From Chthonomonas calidirosea (GTDB lineage: Bacteria; Armatimonadota; Fimbriimonadia; Fimbriimonadales; Fimbriimonadaceae), in the NCBI GenBank assembly GCA_945882415.1, contig CAMCWC010000023.1:1-37023 (forward strand): a stretch of 37,023 nt of DNA, read 5' to 3'. Under the pieces are notes generated by a model. It searched no databases and was not told the DNA's origin. It saw nothing but the letters and a program-made list of their open reading frames with translations. Positions within the stretch are counted from its first letter, which is position 1. Each line of letters opens with the position of its first letter. Position numbers and translations under genes: made by a program. Shown one piece after another: positions 20,042 to 31,467 of the stretch.

Positions 20042-20887
20042 ATGGGTCGCAAAACCGGCTTTACCCTCATCGAACTCCTCGTTGTTATCGCGATCATCGC
20101 CATCCTGGCGGCGATCCTTTTCCCCGTGTTTGCGCAAGCCAAAAACGCCGCCAAGAAGACGGCGAGTTTGTCGAACGTTAAACAAATCGGGACCGCGACC
20201 GTTTTGTACGTTGGAGATTACGATGATGTGATCGTTCCGCTACGCTGGCTCAGCTTCAATCCGGCGGAGCCGCTCGCGACCCAGTATCCGACCGCTTGTC
20301 AGGGCGGAGCATGCTTCTTCTTCTATCCCGTGCTGTTCCAACCCTACACGAAAAACACAGACCTATTCCTTTGCCCAGCCGACAGAAACGAGGATGCAAC
20401 GCAAGCCGATAGCCAAGGGCGAGGTCGACTTAATAAGCAATCGTCTTTGTATTGGTACAACACCGGCTTCTCGCCCAGCTACGGCATGAATGCCGAGTAC
20501 CTCAACACCGTAAGCGTGTCAGGCTTTGGCACAAAATCGTACGCAGGGAAGTCAGCTACCAGCTTCGAGTCGCCTTCTCAAACCGTTGTATTCGCCGAAG
20601 CGACCGCCAAGGACACTGGTTCTCCCGGTCGGCCAGGCCCAACGATCGACGTCGGCTTCCACCGCATCGTGCCACCAAGCGGAGCTTCGTCCCCGTCTGC
20701 GGCTTGGGTCAACTTCACGTATCCCAACGCCGCGAGCCAAGGTCAGCTCTGGGGCCGGTTCCAGCGGGATAAGGTGCTGATTAGCTGGCTCGATGGCCAT
20801 GTCTCGTACCCGGCCATTCGAAGCTTAGTGGGCACAAACGAGAGCACAGAGTCCCTCGACCGAGCTTTCAACGGTCGAGGGTTCTAA
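20042..20887 (+). CDS. Type II secretion/type IV pilin-like pseudopilin (DUF1559-like)
   Basis: A 281-residue pseudopilin. The prepilin peptidase site is MGRKTG^[12 protein letters not shown], with Glu at +5 of the mature protein, followed by the long hydrophobic helix to about residue 30. The body has [19 protein letters not shown] and ends in a WLDGHVSY segment of the H-X9-DG type. Such proteins are very numerous in Armatimonadota and Planctomycetota; the natural partners (assembly ATPase, secretin) are not nearby. Location is the inner membrane or an assembled pseudopilus. The last codons encode a 10-bp hairpin that may act as terminator. Confidence 0.9.
20853..20881. terminator. Hairpin in the last codons of the pilin gene
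   Basis: CCCTCGACCG (20853-20862) pairs perfectly with CGGTCGAGGG (20872-20881), with a 9-base loop. It ends just before the pilin stop codon. The convergent gene ends two bases beyond, leaving no room for a separate terminator. T tracts are poor, so the role is tentative. Confidence 0.45.
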
Positions 20888-28817: not shown

Positions 28818-30155
28818 ATGAAGAACCTTCTGACTCGCGCAAGCATCGTGTCCAGTATCGCCCTTGTTGCCTCTTCAGCGATGGCTCAGCCGTTCACGCA
28901 AAGTTCAATTGCCGGAAATGACAAAGCATGGATGCTACTCAGCCCGAAATTTGTGGCAGATGGTGAGTGTACGGATCTGGGTTGGTCGTCCGATGGACGA
29001 TTCTTGCTTGTTAACCGTTCGCGGATGGAGCTGACAACGAAGTACATCCAGCAGATTTTCTCAAAATCGTCTGCGCCGCAAGAACCGCCACCAAGTATTG
29101 GGGAGATCGTCACCTTCTCGATGGAAACCGGTAAGTCCAGGGTGATCTATAAGTACGACGCATCCTTGTTTCGCGCCGAGACTAAGTGGCTTGGCACAGG
29201 AAGCGCGGTCATTTTCTCCTTGCAATCCAATTTGACGTCGCTTATCAGCGTGTTTGTCAGCACGGCCGATGGAGATGTTAAGCAATTGAACTTAGGCGAA
29301 AAGGTCAACCTGATCCAGTACTTCCCATCACCCACGCGGGCTGAGATGGTGATTCAATTACACAGTGAGTCAGATGGAATGACCGTTCAACGGGTGAACT
29401 CGTCGGGTCCGGTCGGCCGAACCTTAAAAACCGCGAGCGGAAGCGAACCAGTTGCCTACCTGAAGAACGGGAACGAGATTTTATTTGCTGGCATGCGCCG
29501 AGCAACCGGACCGCTCTCGTCTGACGGCAAAACTAAAGAAGCCGAAACCTTCTTTGAAGCCGTCAACGTTCAGACAGGTGCGACACGGCCAGCGACGAAA
29601 TCGGAGTACGACGCAGCCTACGACGGCGAAGAGCCGCAACTGGCACTTGATGAAAAGCCGGTTCAAGTCGATTCAAAGCTGAAGCCGCTCACATCCGCAA
29701 TTTTTCGGTCCGCGGATGAGCTCGTCCTGATTGCCGCCGATGTGTCCTTGGTAAAACCAAACCGACAACTCACCGGTGTGGCCTACGTCTCTCAGGGCAC
29801 GATATTTGTTCGACCGATTGCGGAGGTGCCACTCGCAGCCTTCCTAGATGCTAAGGACGCAGCGGAGCGAACTAAGATCATCAGTAATGCAAAGCAGGTC
29901 GCTTTAGGACTTATCATTTATGCAGCTGATAACGATGACAACTTGCCTTCAAATCAGGGAAAGTGGCAGGATTCGATCTTCCCGTACCTCAAAGACCGAA
30001 ACACGATGGACGGGTTTGTTTTAGCATTTAAGGGAGGAAGTATTTTAAAGGTAGAGGACCCTTCCAAAACGATCATGGGATACATTCCGGGGAAGGGTGG
30101 TCGAGCCGTTGCTTACGTGGACGGTCACGTGAAGTGGATCAAAGATGGTCAGTAG
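28818..30155 (+). CDS. Exported propeller-like protein with pseudopilin-type C-terminal domain
   Basis: A 445-residue protein with a clear signal peptide (1-23, ending AMA before QPF). Residues about 38-335 look like TolB/WD40-type blades (LGWSSDGRFLLVN, IVTFSMETGKSRVIYKYD). From about 349 the sequence changes to ERTKIISNAKQVALGLIIYAADNDD and ends GGRAVAYVDGHVKWI, which closely mirrors the body of DUF1559/H-X9-DG pseudopilins, including the SNxKQ start and the YxDGHV end, but without the prepilin helix. So a pilin-type globular domain seems fused to a propeller. Function is unknown; periplasmic or surface location is likely. Its stop lies inside the start of the paralogue that follows (11-base overlap). 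Confidence 0.72.
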   Translation: MKNLLTRASIVSSIALVASSAMAQPFTQSSIAGNDKAWMLLSPKFVADGECTDLGWSSDGRFLLVNRSRMELTTKYIQQIFSKSSAPQEPPPSIGEIVTFSMETGKSRVIYKYDASLFRAETKWLGTGSAVIFSLQSNLTSLISVFVSTADGDVKQLNLGEKVNLIQYFPSPTRAEMVIQLHSESDGMTVQRVNSSGPVGRTLKTASGSEPVAYLKNGNEILFAGMRRATGPLSSDGKTKEAETFFEAVNVQTGATRPATKSEYDAAYDGEEPQLALDEKPVQVDSKLKPLTSAIFRSADELVLIAADVSLVKPNRQLTGVAYVSQGTIFVRPIAEVPLAAFLDAKDAAERTKIISNAKQVALGLIIYAADNDDNLPSNQGKWQDSIFPYLKDRNTMDGFVLAFKGGSILKVEDPSKTIMGYIPGKGGRAVAYVDGHVKWIKDGQ

Positions 30156-31467
30156 ATTCCTCGTCCTAGCCACGATTTCATGTGCGTCCAGCGGCTTAGC
30201 TGAGTTGCGTTCGCAAAGCGCAACGAACAGTTTTCTCCCATTTAGAGAAACCGCGCTCCTTTTCCTTCCTGCAAGGTTTGTTTCAGAGGGGGAAGTCAAG
30301 GAGATGGTTTGGTCAAACGACGGCAATTACCTGCTGATTAACCGGACATACCAACCTGCAGCCAGTGAACTGCTACAGGCTCAGCTACACGCGACCGTGC
30401 CGCAAACTTCAACTCCGAAGCTTGAAGGCGAAATCCTCGTGTGGAACCTAGCAACATCCAAGACTTGGAGCATCAAGAAGTACGACGCAAGTACAACGCA
30501 AGCATCGGCTCAGTGGCTTGGAAACAGTAGCCAGATCACCTTCTGTCTGTTCCAGGAAAAGGAAGCCGTTGCCAAACTGTTCACAAGCACCACCGATGGC
30601 TCCGTTCGCGAGTTGCCCCCTTTCACTCGGTGCTTCCAAATCTCGATCCATCCGCTCAAACACTCCGCTGAAGCAGTACTGGCGCTTCTGAATAACGGTG
30701 GCCGTGGCTCGGTTCGCCGGTTCAACGCTAGCCTCGAGCTTGGGCCCGAGATCAATCAGCCGAGGGAACTGTTTGCCGGGTTTCATATCGAAACCGATGA
30801 AGCTATCTTCTTGCTCTATCCTAATGCGAAATTTGGCGAGCCACACCCCGAATCAAGTTTTCGCGGAGAAAATGTCCTAAACGGAGCTAGTCGCACCCTC
30901 AGTCCGGGCCAAGTTAATCCGCCAAAGCAAGCGCCGGACTCCGACAAGTTTCCGACTCTGACTAGCATCAAAACCCCGGTCAATGAAACCGGTGGAACCA
31001 CGACGGCTCTGCTCATGCAGTTTGAAAAGAAGTTCGTACTGATTAGTGCTGATTGCACCATGGCGCTCGCGAACGATCAGCTGACCGCGGTGGCATTCCA
31101 ATCCGAGGGCAAGCTCTTCATTCGCCCAATTGAACGCGCGCCACTTGTGCGATCGGATCATGGGAAGGAAGTAGCGGAGCGAACGATGCTACTGGGACGT
31201 GCAAAAGAACTCGCACAATGCTTTGCCAGCTACGCTCAAGACCATCACGACACAATGCTCGGTGTGGGAAGCAATTGGAAAGCCGAGATGCAGCCCTACG
31301 TGCCGAACGCAGTGCTGCTTGAAGAATTTGTCCTTGCATTTGCTGGAGGAGTCGTTAGTGCAGTGGAGAAGCCTTCGGAGACCGTGTTAGGCTATCTCCA
31401 AGGCCGCACCGGCAAAGTAGCCGCGTATCTCGACGGAAGCGTGCGGTGGATTCCGAACGGAAAGTAA
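30145..31467 (+). CDS. Paralogue of the preceding propeller/pseudopilin-tail protein
   Basis: A 440-residue tandem paralogue. It has a signal-like leader (MVSRFLVLATISCASSGLA) and the same order of blocks: VWSNDGNYLLINR, ILVWNLATSKTWSIKKYDAS, then from about 343 AERTMLLGRAKELAQCFASYAQD and a closing KVAAYLDGSVRWI. The His of the DGH motif is Ser here (DGS). Divergence is considerable, so the duplication is old. It overlaps the preceding gene by 11 bases, so the pair is translated together. Function is unknown; two related exported sensors or adhesins are one possibility. Confidence 0.7.
   Translation: MVSRFLVLATISCASSGLAELRSQSATNSFLPFRETALLFLPARFVSEGEVKEMVWSNDGNYLLINRTYQPAASELLQAQLHATVPQTSTPKLEGEILVWNLATSKTWSIKKYDASTTQASAQWLGNSSQITFCLFQEKEAVAKLFTSTTDGSVRELPPFTRCFQISIHPLKHSAEAVLALLNNGGRGSVRRFNASLELGPEINQPRELFAGFHIETDEAIFLLYPNAKFGEPHPESSFRGENVLNGASRTLSPGQVNPPKQAPDSDKFPTLTSIKTPVNETGGTTTALLMQFEKKFVLISADCTMALANDQLTAVAFQSEGKLFIRPIERAPLVRSDHGKEVAERTMLLGRAKELAQCFASYAQDHHDTMLGVGSNWKAEMQPYVPNAVLLEEFVLAFAGGVVSAVEKPSETVLGYLQGRTGKVAAYLDGSVRWIPNGK

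Follow-up and report, generated by a model that had tools for sequence, protein, structure and literature searches.

The closest described relatives of the proteins reported here belong to the DUF1559 (SBP_bac_10) pseudopilins. Fimbriimonas ginsengisoli has 79 PulG-type genes, only 65 of which carry the N-terminal methylation motif (PMC4072686), and 68 DUF1559 proteins have been counted in Planctopirus limnophila (PMC10632474). For the planctomycete Tuwongella immobilis, one report gives 91 proteins with both a prepilin motif and SBP_bac_10, and notes three proteins in which SBP_bac_10 is joined to a Sec/SPI signal peptide (PMC8567305); the section concerned presents the latter as a domain combination only, with no propeller fusion and no interpretation. 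In Geobacter the major pilin is heterodimeric, with PilA-N (61 aa) and PilA-C (104 aa) as its subunits (PMC11046646), and the PilA-C-like protein has a signal peptide (PMC5174107). A propeller is also found in PilY1, whose modified C-terminal propeller domain is active in pilus biogenesis (PMC4471445). Helix-less pilin heads therefore have precedents, in Geobacter PilA-C and in the Sec/SPI plus DUF1559 proteins of Planctomycetes. No account of a pilin body fused to a propeller or an M56 metallopeptidase turned up in the openly licensed papers that could be searched.

We analyzed a 37,023-nt stretch of DNA assigned to Chthonomonas calidirosea (contig CAMCWC010000023.1), referred to below as the window, in which two tandem genes encode exported propeller proteins that end in such a body. 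The features are as follows (all on the forward strand):

28818..30155, +, P0001, exported propeller plus helix-less pilin body, 445 aa
28818..28886, +, P0001 Sec/SPI-type signal peptide, residues 1-23, cleavage between AMA and Q (read by eye)
28905..29831, +, P0001 beta-propeller, residues 30-338 (AlphaFold2 model; WD40 and S9-peptidase propeller matches)
29832..30152, +, P0001 helix-less pilin body, residues 339-445, with the retained soluble half of helix 1 at 339-371
30145..31467, +, P0002, second tandem copy, 440 aa
30145..30201, +, P0002 signal peptide, residues 1-19, cleavage between GLA and E (read by eye)
30247..31143, +, P0002 propeller region (alignment to P0001)
31144..31464, +, P0002 diverged helix-less pilin body, DGS for DGH
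30145..30155, +, overlap of the P0001 and P0002 reading frames, 11 nt
20042..20887, +, canonical DUF1559-type pseudopilin outside the tandem, for comparison only (PF07963 and PF07596 above cut-off)

The first-pass annotation of this DNA had described the coordinates, signal peptides, tandem layout and sequence motifs of the pair in the same way. Read by eye, signal peptide cleavage would follow MKNLLTRASIVSSIALVASSAMA and precede Q in P0001, and would follow MVSRFLVLATISCASSGLA and precede E in P0002. The P0001 signal peptide is modeled as a helix at residues 3-20, and the AQ pair is present in the family consensus. Neither protein has an M56 domain or membrane segments, and end to end the two are 32% identical. 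With the DUF1559 pseudopilins they share the soluble half of helix 1 and the motifs YAxDxDDxxP, W..PYxKN, PAxT and DGHxKW, with changes in P0002 described below; they differ in having a Sec signal peptide and a propeller in place of the prepilin leader and membrane helix. In the Tuwongella proteins (PMC8567305), too, a type I signal peptide takes the place of the prepilin leader in front of a DUF1559 body. Geobacter PilA-C (GSU1497-like) is likewise a helix-less pilin globular domain behind a signal peptide, but it partners an adjacent helix-only PilA-N, whereas no such partner is adjacent to the window pair or evident in the genome. In PilY1/PilC a propeller is tied to pilins, as in the window pair; PilY1 however works with separate pilins, whereas here the pilin part lies in the same chain and is unlinked to pilus genes.

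The likeness of the P0001 C-terminal part to the pseudopilin at 20042, which had been noticed by eye, goes beyond chance. Direct BLASTP gives E 1e-6 against this pseudopilin and E values down to 2.1e-6 against others of the same genome. A family sample of 51 relatives was drawn from 61 related genomes, and a profile built from their C-terminal parts only retrieved true pseudopilins with prepilin leaders (best E 5e-15). When 25 C-terminal domains were compared with 15 same-genome pseudopilins by hhalign, the match began at FLDAKDAAERTKIISNAKQ and reached a probability of 99.4 (E 1.6e-21). In the reverse direction, we trimmed the hydrophobic helix from a pilin-body profile; it then matched 44 of the 51 relatives (best E 1.1e-17; P0001, 2.9e-16), while all 1071 controls, shuffled or reversed, stayed unmatched. 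P0002 was not matched by the pilin-body profile itself and is linked only via the family; its body has diverged, with DGS for DGH and PYVPN for PYxKN. The P0002 orthologue in the sister genome shows a similar change (DGT), which argues that P0002 is a stable divergent copy. Curated models did not recognize the pair: PF07596 listed neither protein at E 1, and TIGR04294 (H-X9-DG-CTERM) scored the pair at 12.6 and 13.6 bits, below its 19-bit cut-off, aligning the DG part with the H of H-X9-DG absent. Since these Pfam and NCBIfam models miss the body or score it below cut-off, standard annotation would probably call such genes hypothetical proteins. Comparison through the family and pilin-body profiles upholds the homology suggested in the first-pass annotation, and the other checks proposed there, a fold prediction for the body alone and a survey of the phylum, likewise gave favorable results (see below). 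A search of solved-structure sequences with the body profile gave no match, and a scan of viral contigs found no relative.

The AlphaFold2 model of the whole protein (P0001 with 45 relatives) has a pLDDT of 91.8 and consists of the signal helix, a propeller at 30-338, a helix at 339-371, and then two short helices and three strands. Over residues 32-337 the propeller resembles WD40 and S9-peptidase propellers (Z about 14), in agreement with the propeller-like blades that had been noted in the sequence; PD40 was matched in 2 of 36 family members. Foldseek with the whole-protein model returned propellers only. Modeled alone, the body reaches a pLDDT of 95.5 and adopts a pilin fold, in which helix 1 packs against a sheet of three strands. 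With this model Foldseek alone found nothing significant in the PDB, and pilins surfaced only in a second pass, when the model was aligned to the 855 best Foldseek chains by VIA-align 2. The best solved match was then Thermus thermophilus PilA4 (Z 8.3, rmsd 2.7 over 94 residues), followed by neisserial pilins in second and third place (Z 5.0 and 4.5) and, fourth, a pilus-like protein (Z 3.4). These four are all type IV pilins, and unrelated chains come next with Z at or below 2.8. Taken with the profile results, the C-terminal domains of P0001 and P0002 are almost certainly helix-less pilin bodies.

The body model aligns to PilA4 residues 19-118, which puts the cut near pilin residue 20, at the point where helix 1 exits the membrane. 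The body accordingly starts at about residue 339 of P0001, equivalent to pilin residue 21 or so, and not at 349 as first proposed. In the model the last propeller strand (328-338) continues straight into the 339-371 helix, so that this strand is predicted to stand in for the membrane half of pilin helix 1, with the soluble half kept. The membrane half with E5 is absent, and the most hydrophobic 19-mer past the signal peptide lies in the propeller. No N_methyl match was found in P0001 or P0002, unlike P0003; a Sec signal peptide is present instead. The earlier statement that cleavage site and helix are gone therefore holds for the leader and the membrane half, but not for the soluble half (mature residues from about 21 on). 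Because both the leader and the membrane segment of the helix are missing, the usual processing and incorporation into a filament would be impossible.

A body profile run on the genome of origin found 55 places. A canonical prepilin leader precedes the body in 49 (48 by a strict pattern and one by eye), a degenerate leader in two, and the remaining four are helix-less: P0001, P0002, a LADLP protein and a two-body lipoprotein. The LADLP protein (L011:931-1869; G000:C14:101860-102216) combines a signal peptide, a 'LADLP' domain of about 150 aa and a helix-less body, and similar LADLP-type proteins occur in relatives (L093-L097, L099-L101, L105). The lipoprotein (L198:967-1863; G000:C12, about 36.5-39 kb) has the lipobox ILACGG and two tandem helix-less bodies. 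Elsewhere, BlaR1-type M56 metallopeptidases end in the body (L107:1660-3117, L091:930-2876, L175:4834-6465), with the M56 domain recognized by Pfam at E about 1e-33 or better; they share the helix-less body with the window pair, which has no M56 domain. Two exported proteins (L156:5521-7164, L157:925-2160) combine an NTF2-like domain, one body or two, and then a thioredoxin-like domain, as read by eye. Other relatives have a signal peptide with an NTF2-like domain and body, or a signal peptide and body alone (domains assigned by eye), and in another a GYF-like domain and a membrane helix precede the body (names again by eye). The planctomycete protein L162 also carries a helix-less body. One non-pilin protein (L099:1126-2250) retains, as AILAPVFTQANKASKQTQTLSNAKQ, the last part of the pilin membrane helix; this remnant looks like a fossil of the fusion and points to descent from a canonical pilin. 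Two further observations concern the genome of origin. It has 77 prepilin leaders against one PF06750 prepilin peptidase match, and two adjacent pseudopilin-like genes (L014; G000:C5, about 82-85 kb) carry the degenerate leaders LTLTECIAIV and YTFAEGLAIG.

The fusion is widespread in the phylum: a propeller-only profile detected the family in 142 of 291 genomes across many taxonomic families. We read 22 genes from distant families: 20 have the body, a single complete gene is without it (L245), and a contig end truncates the last, which leaves 20 body-bearing genes among the 21 testable matches. This occurrence across many families argues for an old, retained architecture rather than a local accident. 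Most of the named records belong to Armatimonadota (Fimbriimonadia and others); beyond the phylum, only a few loci document the spread. Propeller-body genes occur in one to four tandem copies per occurrence. One of them (L242:5687-7036) is split by a single in-frame stop, both halves being still recognizable. We found no conserved operon partner for the family, including signaling, uptake and pilus genes; the neighborhood search returned only sub-clade neighbors (leuD and a DUF192-like lipoprotein) and one trpE-like gene. The leuD and lipoprotein pair (the latter DUF192-like by eye) lies directly upstream in one sub-clade (L069, L070, L074, L081 and others).

When 46 fusion proteins were aligned, D371, Y390, G421, G428, D435 and W440 were invariant (P0001 numbering). 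The counterparts of D371, Y390 and D435 in the canonical proteins are D59, Y102 and D251, which are invariant in 15 canonical pseudopilins. Invariance in both classes suggests that these residues matter for the body itself rather than for the assembly of filaments. The mean column identity is 51% in the body versus 23% in the propeller. Compared with the sister genome (L051), P0001 is 59% and P0002 62% identical, with bodies at 75 and 70% and propellers at 53 and 61%, respectively, whereas most flanking genes (those for E2, Fpg, a keto-disaccharide hydrolase, a glycosyltransferase and YihY) are at 91-96% and a GNAT gene is at 72%. The tandem pair evolves much faster than most of its neighbors; weak constraint would also give such fast evolution. 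Between the sister genomes dN is well below a dS that is saturated. On the question of one helix loss or several, a body tree of 79 columns did not reject a single clade of helix-less bodies (p-AU 0.41).

The same invariant residues on and off the filament, together with the varied partners, suggest that the body most likely binds something itself. We propose that it would act on its own outside the cytoplasm, as a binding or sensing module put to new use away from the filament, and would recognize the same type of ligand or partner that some 50 filament-type bodies present on pseudopili; the faster-evolving propeller would provide a second, more variable recognition surface. M56/BlaR1 proteins carry a sensor domain, for beta-lactam, after the protease domain. 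In the M56 relatives the pilin body follows the protease, at the place of the BlaR1 sensor, which may point to sensing. The M56 and other fusions are analogies, the sensor role there being itself a presumed one, and the conserved aspartates may do nothing but shape loops. On balance we put a binding or sensing role at an even chance. A broader reading, held more tentatively, is that the DUF1559 body could be a general extracytoplasmic recognition domain, displayed on filaments by dozens of paralogous pseudopilins and, once rid of helix 1, acting as the sensor or recognition head of propellers, M56 proteases and other exported proteins; these bacteria would then have one recognition system in both filament-bound and soluble form.

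The first-pass annotation left two uses open for the detached domain, interaction with pseudopili or action as an independent module. In the former case the body would be a docking adaptor that binds pseudopilin bodies, at the tip or in the groove left by a helix-only subunit, and hangs the propeller on the filament. The genome encodes pilus/type II secretion ATPases, platform proteins and a prepilin peptidase as well as about 50 body-bearing pseudopilins, and Geobacter PilA-C and the propeller-bearing PilY1 provide precedents. Docking is the main alternative, though we consider it the less likely reading: no clear helix-only pilin was found among the 77 prepilin leaders of the genome (the shortest leader-bearing frames, 76 and 91 aa, are both at contig ends), no pilus gene is conserved beside the family, and the fusion partners of the same body include M56, NTF2-like and thioredoxin proteins, for which a role in filaments is not obvious. 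From these sequence comparisons the independent module appears better supported than interaction with pseudopili, because the body occurs on many unrelated exported or membrane proteins and has no linked pilus gene.

Alternatively, the body could be a structural relic that merely closes or stabilizes the propeller and has no binding role. The confident model, in which nothing separates the last propeller strand from the body helix, would fit this, as would the degraded body of some members (L252) and the complete gene that lacks one (L245). Yet no other part of the protein is as well conserved as the body, its invariant residues are common to filament-type bodies, and it occurs without any propeller, even alone behind a signal peptide, which makes a relic improbable. 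Hardly credible is the idea that the pseudopilin similarity reflects convergence or low-complexity coincidence: the unreached PF07596 and TIGR04294 cut-offs and the lack of a significant match by Foldseek alone would be in line with it, but the hhalign result, the reciprocal profile matches with clean controls, the four pilin folds that head the VIA-align 2 ranking and the L099 remnant, which can be aligned beside its canonical pilin counterpart, refute it, barring contaminated profiles.

The presence of the same helix-less head on many other exported or membrane proteins suggests that pilin heads also function apart from pili. The results further suggest that the H-X9-DG/DxDD signature has to do with how the body folds and functions and not with pilin processing. 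The paralogous families of DUF1559 proteins are very large; a soluble, helix-less version with the same invariant residues separates the role of the body from filament assembly, and provides a tractable protein for a ligand search.
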